Source of the DNA: a virus
DNA length: 46,037 nucleotides
Reading direction: 5' to 3' (one strand)
Virus record (IMG/VR): IMGVR_UViG_3300028831_000054
Location: 1 to 46,037 of that record
Shown: positions 6,822 through 17,301 of the stretch, piece by piece
How the letters are laid out: every line of letters begins with the position of its first letter
Position numbering within the stretch: position 1 is the first letter of the stretch
The notes under the pieces: model-generated
What the model was told of the DNA's origin: nothing
The model's input: only the letters and a program-made list of their open reading frames with translations
Databases searched by the model: none
Position numbers and translations under genes: made by a program

Positions 6822-6955
6822 TGGCCGACACACCAGAAATCGCCGCTCTCAAGGCGAAGATCAAGGCGCGTCAGAACCAGCCCGGCTTTGCCCAGAACGT
6901 GGCCGACCTGAAAGCGCGCCTAGCCGAGTTGGAGGCTGCCAGTGCCGGAAATTAA
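6821..6955 (+). CDS. 44-residue helical peptide between ejection genes
   Basis: ATG 6821 overlaps the previous stop (TGATG) and the stop at 6953-6955 lies inside the next gene. The product has an extended charged helix with Lys/Ala/Glu heptads and begins MADTPEIAALK. It is tightly coupled on both sides and GC-rich at third positions, which supports a real gene. Function is unknown; similar short helical proteins occur between ejection genes. Confidence 0.65.
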   Translation: MADTPEIAALKAKIKARQNQPGFAQNVADLKARLAELEAASAGN

Positions 6956-8147
6956 CTGGAATTTGCTCCAGCCCGTCGACATCGGCGCCAACTTCCAGAC
7001 CGGCTTCGCAATGGGGCAGCAGCTGGTCCAGAAGGCGAAACTGAAAAGCGCGCTAGCGGCATATTCGCAAGACCCGACTAATCCGGCTGCGGTAAATGCG
7101 CTCGCCGCGGCCTCGCCCGAGTTCGCGTACAAGATGGCATCGACCCGCGCCGAACTCGCCGCGAAAGCGCAAGAGAAGGCGGTGGAGCGCGCACGCATCG
7201 GTGGTATCCTGAAGCAGTACGATACAGACCCCAATGCTGCACGCCGGGCAGCGCTGGAGTCAGGCGACCCAGACCTTGCCAAGCAAATTGGCGAGTTGAA
7301 CGAAGATCAGCGCAAGCGAGCTGCCGAGATGTACAAAGGCGCGGCCCCGATCGCCTACCGCATTCGCCAAACCGCCGATCCTGCCCAGCGCAAGGCCATT
7401 TTCGATCAGGCCCGTCCGATCCTTGAAGCCCAAGGCTGGCCCGCGGACAAGTTAGACAGCTTCGATGTGACCGACGACACCGCCTTGGACGCGGTGATTA
7501 CGTCCGCTCAAACCGTTAATCAGCTCATCGACCAGGGCAAGATCACCTGGCACCAGCAGGGCGAGCAGCCCAGCTTCGCGACCGATGCTATGGGCCATCC
7601 GATCGGCACGCAGAACCCGGCGCGTGTCGCTCAGCCCGCCGCAACTGGCGGGTTTGATGCGGCTGTCGAGCACGTCCTCACCAACGAGGGCGGATACAAC
7701 GCCAGCGACATGAATGGGAAGCCGGTCAACTTCGGTATCAATCAGGGCGCGAACCCGGACATCGATGTCAAAAACATGACCCGCGACCAGGCCAGGCAGG
7801 TTTATCACGACCGCTACTGGGTGCCGAGCGGCGCAGAGGATTTGCCGAGCAACCTACAGGCACCGTACTTCGACGTTTATATCCGCAACCCTAGCGTGGC
7901 GAAGCGTGCGCTGTCGCAATCAGGCGGGGATCCCGTCAAATTCATGGAGATCACCAACGGCTATTTCCGGCACCTGGGCCAGACTCCTGAGGGCCAGAGA
8001 TACGCCAAGGCATGGGCGAACAGGGACAGCCGCAACCTCAGCATCGCCACTGGCGCCCCGCATATCACCAGCAAGGCTGATTTCGACGCTCTGCCCAGCG
8101 GTGCCGAGTTCATTGCGCCGGACGGCACCCACCGGAGGAAGCCCTGA
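6942..8147 (+). CDS. Ejection protein with C-terminal GH108-type lysozyme domain
   Basis: The 401-residue product starts at GTG 6942. Residues 1-210 are helical, as in internal virion proteins. Residues about 238-330 match the glycoside hydrolase 108 pattern: 'FDAAVEHVLTNEGGY' with the presumed catalytic Glu249, then an 'NFGIN' segment and 'YWVP'. A GH108 domain attached to an ejection protein would open the peptidoglycan locally during genome entry, as virion-associated lysozymes do in other podophages. It is distinct from the endolysin at 15179. Confidence 0.8.
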   Translation: MPEINWNLLQPVDIGANFQTGFAMGQQLVQKAKLKSALAAYSQDPTNPAAVNALAAASPEFAYKMASTRAELAAKAQEKAVERARIGGILKQYDTDPNAARRAALESGDPDLAKQIGELNEDQRKRAAEMYKGAAPIAYRIRQTADPAQRKAIFDQARPILEAQGWPADKLDSFDVTDDTALDAVITSAQTVNQLIDQGKITWHQQGEQPSFATDAMGHPIGTQNPARVAQPAATGGFDAAVEHVLTNEGGYNASDMNGKPVNFGINQGANPDIDVKNMTRDQARQVYHDRYWVPSGAEDLPSNLQAPYFDVYIRNPSVAKRALSQSGGDPVKFMEITNGYFRHLGQTPEGQRYAKAWANRDSRNLSIATGAPHITSKADFDALPSGAEFIAPDGTHRRKP

Positions 8148-13566: not shown

Positions 13567-13686
13567 ATGGCGACTGCACCACCCGGAGGCCCGACGCCCA
13601 CACCGACTCCTACTCCGACGCCGACACCATCGCCGCTGCCGGACCCGGACAAGAAGCCCAAGCCGACACCGCCGGACGCCGCATAA
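13567..13686 (+). CDS. 39-residue Pro/Thr-repeat peptide
   Basis: An excellent AAAGGAGA ribosome site precedes ATG 13567. The peptide holds a run of alternating Thr-Pro pairs (residues 10-20) followed by an acidic/Lys-Pro tail and ends one base before the next start region. No signal peptide or membrane segment is present. The repeat is encoded by varied Thr and Pro codons, so it is selected at protein level rather than a plain DNA repeat. Function unknown. Confidence 0.65.
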   Translation: MATAPPGGPTPTPTPTPTPTPSPLPDPDKKPKPTPPDAA

Positions 13687-13687
13687 A

Positions 13688-14188
13688 ATGCAGCCGCAAG
13701 AGATTATCCTTGCGGCGGTGGTCCTGCTGATCGGGGTTCCTTCTGCACGGAGGAACCCCACGGCGGCGGCATTGGTCGGCGCATGGTTTGTCACGAAGGT
13801 GATCTACCTTGTCACCGGGGACAGCTTGCCGGTCCAGTTCTTCGTGTTCCCGGATATTGGTGTCATCACGATTATCCTCTGCAAGCCAGAGTACCAGCCC
13901 TGCGAAGAGTACCGGAGCATCTGGCACCAGCTTTGGTGCATCCTCGCCGAGCGTAGTCCGTCTGACCGCGTGGTAATGCTGATCTTCCCCATTGAGTGGG
14001 GGATTTACGTCAGCACGCTCGGGGCGGTCTCCGTCTGGTGGCTGCTGTGGGGCCTTAGCATCCTTCAGTTCCTTGCTGCCGGTGCAGAGCCGCTGGCCGA
14101 ATATCTCCACCGCCGCGATGCCGACGCGGCCGAAACCCCCGGTCCTGGGGCCATGCTCGTTGCGTACCCAGGGGGAGGCTATGGATGA
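13688..14188 (+). CDS. Polytopic membrane protein at head of lysis cassette
   Basis: I choose ATG 13688, one base after the previous stop. The 166-residue product has about four hydrophobic segments (near 5-18, 25-43, 48-66 and 92-130) and a hydrophilic tail. Several Cys residues lie in the loop near 65-85. It could be a holin or a membrane-bound inhibitor; position at the start of the lysis genes is the only guide. Confidence 0.6.
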   Translation: MQPQEIILAAVVLLIGVPSARRNPTAAALVGAWFVTKVIYLVTGDSLPVQFFVFPDIGVITIILCKPEYQPCEEYRSIWHQLWCILAERSPSDRVVMLIFPIEWGIYVSTLGAVSVWWLLWGLSILQFLAAGAEPLAEYLHRRDADAAETPGPGAMLVAYPGGGYG

Positions 14189-14570
14189 GCTTCTCGGCAA
14201 AATCTTCAACGCTGCGACCGGCGTATGGGCGATTTTCTGCGCCATCGTCGTCGCCCTGTTCAAGGCGTGGCCAGCAGTCATGGGGCGCCTCAACGAACGG
14301 CGCCGGGACATGGCGGCCGAAGAAGCGAGCGACTGGGAGCGCCTTCGCTCGGAAAGGGACAGGCTTCGCGGACTACTCGAAGGCACCGACAGTCTGCTGG
14401 CCGCTCGTGACGCGAAGATTGCCCAGCTCCAGCAAGAGAAGGTCGAGCTGTTGAGCCGGGCCATCCAAGCCGAGGCCACCCTTCAAGGGTATGGAGAGGC
14501 CCGCCAGCGGCTTGCCGTTGAGGAAGCGGCCAAGCGCCTTGCCCCGCCCGAGGGAGGCGGCGGTGAATGA
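14181..14570 (+). CDS. Membrane-anchored coiled-coil protein
   Basis: 129 residues from ATG 14181 (GGGGGAGG upstream), overlapping the previous gene by 8 bases. One membrane segment near residues 13-34 is followed by a long charged coiled coil (about 50-115) with Leu heptads. That is the shape of an inner-membrane spanin, but a better spanin pair lies at 16722-17301, so this could be a second envelope protein or a holin antagonist. Confidence 0.6.
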   Translation: MDELLGKIFNAATGVWAIFCAIVVALFKAWPAVMGRLNERRRDMAAEEASDWERLRSERDRLRGLLEGTDSLLAARDAKIAQLQQEKVELLSRAIQAEATLQGYGEARQRLAVEEAAKRLAPPEGGGGE

Positions 14571-14794
14571 CTGGCTTCCTCGCCGAGCTCCTTCGGGATC
14601 CAAAGACCCTGGCAGTAATCCTGACCTCGTTCGGCGGCGCCATCGGATGGCTCATCAAGAAGGACCGCGACTGCCAGCGGCGCGAGGCCGTCATGGAGCG
14701 CGACCTGAGCTTCATGCGCGAGCGCCTGTCCAAGGCCGAAGGCTCGGTCGAGACCCTTTGCAACCTTCTCAAACGGGAGACGCACATTGGTTGA
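14567..14794 (+). CDS. Small membrane protein, lysis cassette
   Basis: 75 residues from ATG 14567 in an ATGA overlap. One hydrophobic segment (about 14-31) precedes a basic then charged helical tail with two Cys. Single-span proteins of this size in lysis cassettes are often holin-like or antiholin-like. Function is inferred from position. Confidence 0.6.
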   Translation: MTGFLAELLRDPKTLAVILTSFGGAIGWLIKKDRDCQRREAVMERDLSFMRERLSKAEGSVETLCNLLKRETHIG

Positions 14795-15182
14795 CGATCC
14801 CGCTGTAGAGATAGCCGCGTTCCTCGGGAGAGGCTGGCATATCGTCCTTGAGGATGCGCCCTCAGCGGTCATTCTTGTCGATACCGGTGGACGCATCCAG
14901 TGGGCGAACCGGGCCTTCATCACCTTGTTCGGATATGCGCGCCCCGAAATCGTCGGCAAGCAGGTCAATTTCCTTCTCCCCGAGGACCGTAGGGAAAGGC
15001 ACGGCGAGTACATCGCCGGCTGGTTCAAACACCCCCGCCCGCGCCCGATGGGGACCGACCTCAATATCCAGGGGTCGAACAAGAACGGCGACCTGCTCGA
15101 TCTCGACATCAAGCTGACCCCGATCGAGACCGAAGGCGGCATCATGGCTCTCGCGTGGATCATGGAAAGAGAGAAGCCGTGA
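14787..15182 (+). CDS. Stand-alone PAS-domain protein in the lysis cassette
   Basis: 131 residues from TTG 14787 with GGGAGA upstream, overlapping the previous gene by 8 bases. Almost the whole protein is one PAS domain (residues about 20-127): 'PSAVILVDTGGRIQWANRAF', 'LFGYARPEIVGK', 'LLPEDRR' and a C-terminal strand pair ending near 'ALAWIMERE'. No kinase, cyclase, HTH or membrane part is attached. PAS domains sense redox state, light or small ligands, or dimerise. The stop overlaps the endolysin start (GTGA), so the two are translated together. Confidence 0.85.
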   Translation: MVDDPAVEIAAFLGRGWHIVLEDAPSAVILVDTGGRIQWANRAFITLFGYARPEIVGKQVNFLLPEDRRERHGEYIAGWFKHPRPRPMGTDLNIQGSNKNGDLLDLDIKLTPIETEGGIMALAWIMEREKP

Positions 15183-15799
15183 GCTGGAAAGACACCCAGC
15201 GGAAGCTCAACAGCTTTGGTTACGCCCTATCCGAAGACGGAGTGCCCGGCCCCAAGACCTATGCGGCGCTGTTCGCGTACATGGGAGCCAGGGACACCGC
15301 GACGGCTTTCGGCAAGGCGGCGGCAGACTTGTTCCCGCAGTACGAGATCACGACGCCGCTCCGGATCGCGCACTTCATGGCCCAGGCATCGGCCGAGACA
15401 GGCGGCTTCAGGTGGCTGCGCGAGATATGGGGGCCGACCGCGGCCCAGCGTGGCTATGAGGGCCGAGTGGACCTCGGGAATGTGATTGCCGGCGATGGGC
15501 AGAAGTTCCTCGGGCGGGGCGTGTTCCAGATCACGGGCCGCGACAATTACGAGCGCTACGGCAAGCGGTGCGGCTTGGACCTCGCCTGTGATCCGAAACT
15601 CGCGGAAGACCCCGCCACGGCGCTCAAGATCGCGTGCATGTACTGGGCCGACCACCGGCTCAACGCCTATGCTGACGCCGACAACATTCTCGGCACGTCG
15701 AACGGGATCAACCGCGGCAATCCCGCCAGCATTCGCGAGCCCAACGGATACGAGGACCGGAAGGCAGCGCTTCGCAAGGCCAAGGCGGTGCTGTCGTGA
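15179..15799 (+). CDS. GH19-type endolysin with N-terminal wall-binding motif
   Basis: I start at GTG 15179 (GTGA overlap) rather than GTG 15155, giving 206 residues. The first 32 residues resemble a peptidoglycan-binding repeat ('LNSFGYALSEDGVPGPKTY'). Residues 58-200 match GH19 chitinase/lysozyme-like endolysins: 'MAQASAETGGF' with the likely catalytic Glu73, a second Glu at 82, and 'FLGRGVFQITGRDNYERYG' at 110-128. It should cleave peptidoglycan. There is no signal peptide, so export depends on a holin. Confidence 0.9.
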   Translation: MSWKDTQRKLNSFGYALSEDGVPGPKTYAALFAYMGARDTATAFGKAAADLFPQYEITTPLRIAHFMAQASAETGGFRWLREIWGPTAAQRGYEGRVDLGNVIAGDGQKFLGRGVFQITGRDNYERYGKRCGLDLACDPKLAEDPATALKIACMYWADHRLNAYADADNILGTSNGINRGNPASIREPNGYEDRKAALRKAKAVLS

Positions 15800-16086
15800 A
15801 GAAGTTCCTCGGCGACCTCTTCAAGGGCGTCAACGGGCAGTCCTGGGAACTCGCCCGCATCATGTCGGCATGGGCGATCATCTCCTATTCGTTCGCCTTC
15901 CTGTGGGCGCTGATCCGTCTTCAGAAGGTGCCGGATTGGGCGAGTCTCGGAACCGGCTACGGCGCGGTTCTGCTGGGTGCTGGAGCCTACATCGGCATCA
16001 AAGACCTCGCCCGCGCTCAAGCCGCTTCCGTGACCTCCGCAGCAGCTACCGATGCTGGCGTCAAGCCGCCGCCGGGGACGCCATGA
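15796..16086 (+). CDS. Holin-like protein with two membrane segments
   Basis: 96 residues from GTG 15796 in a GTGA overlap with the endolysin stop. Two hydrophobic segments (about 24-41 and 51-68) are joined by a short loop, with a hydrophilic Ala/Thr/Pro tail. That is class II holin topology, and the place right after the endolysin supports the call. It would open the inner membrane to release the endolysin. Confidence 0.7.
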   Translation: MKKFLGDLFKGVNGQSWELARIMSAWAIISYSFAFLWALIRLQKVPDWASLGTGYGAVLLGAGAYIGIKDLARAQAASVTSAAATDAGVKPPPGTP

Positions 16087-16495: not shown

Positions 16496-16729
16496 ATGAG
16501 CGAAGAACCACTCGCACCGAGGATCGAGTTCTTCTCCCGTCGCAACCGGAAGTCGAAGGAGCTGATCTATTACTTCCGGGTCAGAGCGGCCAACGGCAAG
16601 ATCGTCGTGCCGAGCCAGGGCTACTCTAGGAAGGTGGATTGCATACAGACTGCCTCGCACCTTCGCGGGACGCTGATCGAAGCGCGCATGTTCGACATGG
16701 ACAAGGGCGGGAGCGAGATCGATGCTTAA
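16496..16729 (+). CDS. DUF1508 (YegP-like) domain protein
   Basis: 77 residues; GAGGAA precedes ATG 16496. The core 'YFRVRAANGKIVVPSQGY' followed by a helix with paired basic residues matches the DUF1508 fold, in which two short beta strands and a helix form one repeat. Its job in phages is not known. It overlaps the spanin gene start by 8 bases. Confidence 0.7.
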   Translation: MSEEPLAPRIEFFSRRNRKSKELIYYFRVRAANGKIVVPSQGYSRKVDCIQTASHLRGTLIEARMFDMDKGGSEIDA

Positions 16730-17096
16730 GAACCTATCCGCCCGCGTCATCGGCCTGATCGTCGGGGTGATCGTGCTGCTGCTGGCGGTCGGGCTGTTCG
16801 TCCGATCGTGCGATAAAAGGCGCTCAGAAGCCGCCCAGAGCCGCGTAGAGCGCTCCCAGGCCGAGGCGGCACGCAACAGCGCATCCGATGCCGTGAACAC
16901 CGTGACGGGCGTTGGAGCGAACCAGGCGGCGTCCGAGGAACTGACCCGCCGAAACGAAAAGGAGATACGCAATGCGCCCGGAGCGAACGATCCGGTCAAT
17001 CCCGCTGCTCGCGATGCTGGCTTGCGGAGCCTGTGTCGCCGGCCCGCTTACCGTGACAACCCAAAGTGCCGGGTGTTCCAGCCTCCTGCCGGCTGA
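16722..17096 (+). CDS. Inner-membrane spanin (Rz-like)
   Basis: 124 residues: one N-terminal membrane anchor (about 7-28), then an Arg/Glu/Ala coiled coil (about 31-90) and a C-terminal domain with two Cys. This is the standard i-spanin layout. The following gene starts inside it in another frame, as in lambda Rz/Rz1. The pair would fuse inner and outer membranes in the last step of lysis. Confidence 0.75.
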   Translation: MLKNLSARVIGLIVGVIVLLLAVGLFVRSCDKRRSEAAQSRVERSQAEAARNSASDAVNTVTGVGANQAASEELTRRNEKEIRNAPGANDPVNPAARDAGLRSLCRRPAYRDNPKCRVFQPPAG

Positions 17097-17301
17097 ATGG
17101 AAGCAGGGCGTAGCTGGTGCTGATCTCCCGGACGGCAACACGGTTGGCGACTGGATCGCGTTCGGCGACGCTCAGACCGGGAAGCTCGACCAGGCCAATG
17201 AGCGGACGAGGGCCAGCATCGGCATTGTCGAGCGGTGCGAGGCAAGGGACGCCGCGGCCGTGAAGAAAGCGACGCGGCGCAAATTCCTCGGGATCTTCTA
17301 A
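16972..17301 (+). CDS. Outer-membrane spanin candidate (Rz1-like)
   Basis: 109 residues from ATG 16972, overlapping the i-spanin gene by 125 bases in the +1 frame. The N-terminus has a basic start and a hydrophobic stretch ending 'LLAMLACGAC', so lipid attachment at Cys18 or Cys21 is likely, though neither fits the lipobox fully. The rest contains 'DGNTVGDWIAFGDAQTG', typical of a spanin-partner family in alphaproteobacterial phages as I recall it. Confidence 0.65.
   Translation: MRPERTIRSIPLLAMLACGACVAGPLTVTTQSAGCSSLLPAEWKQGVAGADLPDGNTVGDWIAFGDAQTGKLDQANERTRASIGIVERCEARDAAAVKKATRRKFLGIF

Follow-up and report, generated by a model that had tools for sequence, protein, structure and literature searches.

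Current accounts of when a phage lyses its host rely mostly on the accumulation of holin and on antiholins. We know of no holin/antiholin system of the T4 or ICP1 type that contains a PAS domain or a cofactor-binding sensor domain. Small sensing proteins that delay holin triggering are established in lysis inhibition, e.g., T/RI/RIII of T4 and TeaA/ArrA of ICP1, and cytoplasmic antiholins exist (PMC7182436). Gp1 of mycobacteriophage Ms6 is encoded just upstream of lysA, with a GTGA junction between the two genes, and binds LysA (PMC3111421). FG214 (PDB 10JX, 10JY), an HTH-PAS transcription factor from Fimbriimonas ginsengisoli, ligates haem by His156 on the proximal and His175 on the distal side, with Met172 as alternative distal ligand, and the dithionite-treated crystal structure has the ligand pair His156-Met172 (PMC13060918).

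Here, we provide evidence that a phage genome sequence from IMG/VR (record IMGVR_UViG_3300028831_000054, positions 1 to 46,037, the 46,037-nucleotide stretch referred to as the window) encodes a free-standing PAS domain at 14787-15182, inside its lysis cassette. The gene order in this region is tail spike, multi-transmembrane (TM) protein, 129-aa TM/coiled-coil protein, 75-aa TM/coiled-coil protein, PAS protein, GH19 endolysin, 96-aa TM protein, DUF1508-domain protein, Rz-like protein and Rz1-like protein. The features are:

13685..14188, plus strand: multi-TM membrane protein, 167-168 aa when read from an internal ATG (MQPQEII...), first gene past the tail spike (ORF list)
14181..14570, plus strand: spanin- or holin-like 129-aa protein; an N-terminal TM segment (19-mer hydropathy 2.18) is followed by a long, charged stretch that is probably coiled coil
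14567..14794, plus strand: 75-aa protein, proposed to partner the PAS protein; short TM segment (residues 14-30), then a charged tail that is rich in K/R and resembles a coiled coil
14787..15182, plus strand: stand-alone PAS protein of 131 aa, read from a TTG start (Pfam, PDB sequence search, HMM, AF2, fold search, codon-position GC)
15000-15002 and 15048-15050, plus strand: codons of H72 and M88, candidate haem-pocket residues (FG214 alignment)
15179..15799, plus strand (ORF-list start 15155): GH19 endolysin (Pfam Glyco_hydro_19 E=1.1e-9; PHROG endolysin E=1.2e-50)
15796..16086, plus strand: 96-aa membrane protein in a holin-like position, its start in a GTGA overlap with the endolysin stop
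16722..17096, plus strand: candidate Rz-like inner-membrane spanin (weakly matched by PHROG Rz-like spanins, E=0.0013)
16972..17301, plus strand: Rz1-like outer-membrane lipoprotein candidate with lipobox LLAMLACGAC (PHROG Rz-like E=0.016, sequence reading), in a different frame from the Rz-like gene that it overlaps

The multi-TM protein matched no family in Pfam and PHROG scans and is possibly a holin or an accessory membrane protein, as judged from position and hydrophobicity; the 129-aa protein likewise had no family match. Small TM proteins resembling the 96-aa protein follow the GH19 gene in three other phage loci (L002, L003, L011). The DUF1508-domain protein (77 aa, 16496-16729) is encoded inside the cassette, after the 96-aa TM gene and before the spanin candidates. 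A second lysozyme/endolysin-like protein is encoded at 6942-8147 of the window (PHROG endolysin E=2e-18) among ejection genes and is probably virion-associated.

An open reading frame for 131 residues at exactly 14787-15182 had been proposed in the preliminary description, and the ORF list, the start and the coding evidence bear it out. TTG is the sole standard start (ATG/GTG/TTG) within the open frame and is preceded by the Shine-Dalgarno-like stretch GGGAG, and the codon-position GC of 0.62/0.42/0.77 has the same pattern as in the neighbouring genes. The gene is tightly packed on both sides. The 129-aa gene ends in a 4-bp overlap (ATGA) with the start of the 75-aa gene, whose stop in turn overlaps the PAS gene by 8 bp, and the PAS stop overlaps the endolysin start by 4 bp (GTGA, 15179-15182). 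The true endolysin start is most likely GTG 15179 rather than the 15155 of the ORF list, because of this GTGA overlap with the PAS stop, the preceding purine-rich AAAGAGAG and the equivalent MMDWKP start of the L002 homologue; the PAS-endolysin overlap is therefore 4 bp. The originally described overlap coupling to both neighbours thus stands, with the endolysin start corrected, while the upstream "membrane protein" is more precisely a 75-aa protein with a single short TM segment, borderline by mean hydropathy (1.84 as 17-mer, 1.35 as 19-mer), that leads into a charged, probably coiled-coil tail. The positive-inside rule predicts its C-terminus on the cytosolic side, and no relatives were found in IMG/VR. 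The arrangement of a 75-aa TM gene overlapping the PAS gene, with the endolysin next, corresponds to a holin/antiholin architecture at the level of the genes, the TM segment being borderline.

Assignment of the 131-aa protein to the PAS domain superfamily is based on concordant profile, topology and fold evidence. It matches Pfam PAS (E=8e-12; 45.6 bits against a cut-off of 22.6), PAS_9 (2.8e-11), PAS_8 (5.6e-10) and PAS_4, all above cut-offs, and an HMM trained on seven cellular PAS domains, with the window protein left out, recovers it with E=1e-30. An AF2 model from an alignment of eight phage PAS proteins (the window protein and seven homologues) has PAS topology with pLDDT 85 and pTM 0.78 and an N-terminal cap helix (residues 5-22); it supersedes a single-sequence model with pLDDT 39. 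Haem-PAS chains rank first in fold comparison by Foldseek and VIA-align (DosP Z 16.3, FG214 Z 16.1, FixL Z 15.3), followed by flavin and LOV PAS chains at Z about 14, so that PAS-chain matches span Z 14-16 and the cofactor cannot be chosen from the fold alone. The protein ends where the PAS domain ends and has no output domain. Both the PAS fold and the lone-domain architecture that had been read from the sequence are thereby confirmed.

The closest solved sequence is FG214 (PDB 10JX, E=4e-13 in a PDB sequence search), whose His156, His175 and Met172 correspond in the alignment to H72, D91 and M88. H72 also aligns with the proximal His of DosP in helix F, i.e., the proximal His of haem-b PAS sensors is present, and at the sixth-ligand or distal side the window protein has Met88 at the M172 site, Asp91 at the His175 site and Leu92 at the distal Arg site; His159 of FG214 is replaced by Tyr. 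H72 and M88 are kept in all eight phage PAS proteins and are two of only 13 invariant columns, at 24-36% identity of the other phage proteins to the window protein. Cellular relatives also carry H72 (44 of 46) and M88 (37 of 46), and the two residues may therefore mark a PAS subfamily rather than haem. At position 92, the site of the distal Arg in FixL and DosP, 31 of the 46 cellular and reference domains have Arg, against none of the phage set. From these residues we infer that haem may be bound, and that H72/M88 together with the absent distal Arg would agree better with a redox switch of the FG214 kind than with an oxygen sensor of the FixL kind. LOV- or PYP-type photochemistry is ruled out, as it needs an adduct- or thioester-forming Cys and the 131-aa protein contains no Cys. 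Of the redox, light or ligand sensing suggested in the preliminary description, light of this type thus drops out, and haem-type sensing of redox state or ligands is kept as a proposal.

Lysis cassettes related to that of the window do without the gene. Among syntenic relatives that include a lysis region, the best is L011, with a portal 65% identical; its gene order is tail spike, 88-aa coiled-coil/TM protein, GH19 endolysin, TM protein and lipoprotein-like protein, with no PAS gene. GH19 relatives with 47-56% identity to the window endolysin sit in cassettes without PAS, and HMM searches found no PAS gene in the syntenic or GH19-related loci L002-L057, whose whole records were also negative by family search. 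Because the related cassettes examined lack it, the PAS gene is an accessory insertion in the window lysis cassette. Loci L012 and L025 (IMGVR_UViG_3300024331_000016) belong to a contig of 12 kb whose portal and head genes are about 95-97% identical to those of the window phage and which ends before the lysis region. Single-sequence searches retrieved no close homologue of the PAS protein from IMG/VR or genome contigs, an RPMG DNA pattern gave 12 matches in IMG/VR of which none was PAS, and 50,697 cultured phage records held no relative at E 1e-3. At E up to 10, the cultured phages yielded only Sinorhizobium phage Phosso (E=0.3) and one chance match. Phosso is a 469-kb jumbo phage with a 434-aa PAS S-box protein that has up to three PAS matches (L071, 333381-333671).

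Absence from all related lysis cassettes, together with lack of expression, had been named at the outset as counting against the idea, and for related endolysins and syntenic genomes the absence is literally what we observed, but the objection is answered by recurrence in unrelated phages. When IMG/VR was searched with a degenerate PAS helix motif, regardless of neighbour genes, eight contigs with PAS relatives emerged, seven of them with a free-standing PAS protein of the same subfamily (125-155 aa) and one with a 702-aa kinase. In all seven contigs (wider stretches of which are L119-L125), a gene for a small TM protein of 79-170 aa overlaps the PAS gene or lies within 10 bp of it. An overlapping or abutting small-TM neighbour occurs at 35 of 258 genes in the same contigs and 41 of 452 in other phage loci, a background of 9-14% that rises to 17% with any gap allowed. 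At the 13.6% rate, the probability of 7/7 adjacency is about 1e-6, and that of 5/5 for independent lineages about 5e-5; the window pair was left out of these statistics as its TM segment falls under the threshold of 19 residues and hydropathy 1.4. Most TM partners have a single TM segment and a soluble helical part on the predicted cytosolic side; that of L110/L111 has two TM segments, and its tail may be outside.

Clear homology among the TM partners is restricted to L105 with L107 and L110 with L111. The TM proteins of the unrelated phages L105 (3335-3730) and L107 (3346-3687) share 27% identity over 102 aa (E=4e-9) and a conserved LHxPHxxxxDxLLxKY-like region, with no Pfam family over cut-off and no cultured-phage relative. 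The PAS tree, which has low support and long branches, forces at least two changes, four by parsimony, and does not support a single gain of PAS by phages. As few TM partners are homologous and the tree needs several origins, the PAS/TM pairing seems to have arisen repeatedly, and such repeated capture suggests selection. It is very unlikely, in our estimate, that the PAS protein was captured from a host signalling protein and merely keeps its fold, either as a decoy or dimerisation competitor of host PAS kinases or with no function at all. The nearest cellular relatives are indeed PAS domains within multidomain signalling proteins and the window branch in the PAS tree is long, but the pocket residues are invariant across the phages, the codon pattern is neighbour-like and the linkage to a TM gene recurs.

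The genes around the recurring pair also bear on its role. In contig L104, the PAS gene is followed by a 79-aa coiled-coil/TM gene (4-bp overlap), a second TM/coiled-coil gene and, 1.06 kb downstream, an Amidase_2 endolysin. In contig L105, a tail-fibre-like gene and a 58-aa TM protein precede the PAS gene; two TM/coiled-coil genes and a lipoprotein-like protein come after it, and an M15 peptidase is encoded on the same strand 3.0 kb downstream. Three phages (window, L104, L105) thus have three unrelated endolysins, GH19, Amidase_2 and M15. Action of the PAS protein on the endolysin as chaperone, translocation helper or inhibitor, in the manner of Ms6 Gp1, would agree with the PAS/endolysin overlap, a 4-bp GTGA junction of the same type as that of gp1-lysA (PMC3111421). 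We nevertheless regard it as quite improbable, given that the endolysin type varies and lies 1-3 kb off in two phages, the TM gene is always adjacent, and the GH19 relatives at 47-56% identity manage with no PAS protein. Consistent linkage to one endolysin type, a trait of Ms6 Gp1, is not found for the phage PAS genes. Because a TM gene always adjoins PAS while the endolysin type varies, a split membrane sensor is favoured over direct action on the endolysin. The earlier suggestion that the PAS protein sets lysis timing by binding a holin or the endolysin accordingly gains on the side of a holin-like partner, with TM linkage in seven contigs, two of them with unrelated endolysins, and loses on the side of the endolysin, which differs in type and is not always adjacent.

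A broader role of the pair was also considered. PAS and small TM protein could form a general phage membrane-signalling or host-takeover module in the late operon, e.g., for superinfection exclusion or redox sensing, for which the site beside the endolysin is a convenient insertion point. In L106, L107, L108 and L110/L111, tail, head or unknown genes adjoin the pair and no endolysin was detected nearby (GH24, GH19, GH108 and M15_3 searches), the L108 PAS gene sitting among head genes, so that the pair does not in every case occupy a recognisable lysis cassette. Syntenic L011 lacks PAS, so that lysis does not require the gene. Endolysins of large phages are often missed by single-family searches, and the GH19 and GH108 searches matched no control genome, which makes these negatives weak, and the endolysins of the window, L104 and L105, the three contigs in which one was found, are all encoded on the same strand, 0-3.0 kb downstream. 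We consider a general module unlikely on balance, though a serious contender. Two genes upstream of PAS in the L108 contig (L123:8126-9448) lies what is apparently a 2'-5' RNA ligase/Acb1-like (anti-CBASS) match.

It is attractive to propose that the window PAS protein belongs to a split membrane sensor, as its cytosolic haem- or ligand-sensing half, and in this way tunes the action of the holin and the timing of lysis, a reading that we hold tentatively and at slightly less than even confidence. Briefly, the PAS protein, probably dimeric through its N-cap helix, would dock on its TM neighbour, a presumed holin or antiholin, at the helical tail on the cytosolic side. The cofactor would most likely be haem b, with His72 as ligand and Met88 as switchable sixth ligand. 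Cofactor binding or a redox change might then alter PAS association, and holin triggering and endolysin release would come earlier or later, by which the phage could make the time of lysis depend on respiration, redox state or gases in the infected cell. That a related phage (L011) manages without the gene is a counterpoint to a role in lysis. More speculative, and somewhat doubtful, is the extension that PAS and small TM protein form a two-gene module, recruited independently by several phage lineages, that acts as a redox- or gas-gated holin or antiholin and sets lysis time. If the proposal is true, a cofactor-binding sensor linked to the holin region would connect the metabolic state of the host directly, at the molecular level, with the time of lysis, and the PAS/TM module would be a natural ligand-controlled lysis switch. 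The module is small, recurs in several phages and sharply predicts haem ligation by His72/Met88 and binding to the small TM protein.

How far this is new becomes apparent from comparison with described systems. Stand-alone "PAS domain" proteins of uncultured phages with 13-17% identity to the window protein are present in BFVD, and a lone phage PAS protein is therefore not itself new; the open-access papers that we searched described neither a PAS protein in a phage lysis cassette nor a PAS/TM gene pair. Short LOV proteins (e.g., PpSB1-LOV) are likewise single-domain PAS-fold sensors without an output domain, but they use flavin and light with an essential Cys, which the phage PAS protein lacks. 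Ms6 Gp1 resembles it in that a small-protein gene lies directly upstream of the endolysin gene with an overlapping GTGA junction, yet Gp1 is an endolysin chaperone-like protein that is not described as PAS. The haem-PAS oxygen sensors FixL and DosP have the fold (Z 14-16) and the helix F proximal His in common with it, whereas their distal Arg (R220 in FixL, R97 in DosP) is Leu92 in the phage protein and they have a kinase or phosphodiesterase in the same polypeptide as the PAS domain. FG214 shares the PAS fold (VIA-align Z 16.1), the proximal His and the alternative Met ligand, and neither protein has the distal Arg; however, FG214 has an HTH output and His175 as main distal ligand, where the phage protein has no output domain and Asp91. 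VqmA of vibriophage VP882 (PMC8284805) is a PAS-HTH transcription factor that acts in the lysis-lysogeny choice, and the window protein has no such C-terminal HTH, but VqmA is likewise a phage-encoded PAS sensor that ties cell state, as reported by the autoinducer DPO, to lysis.
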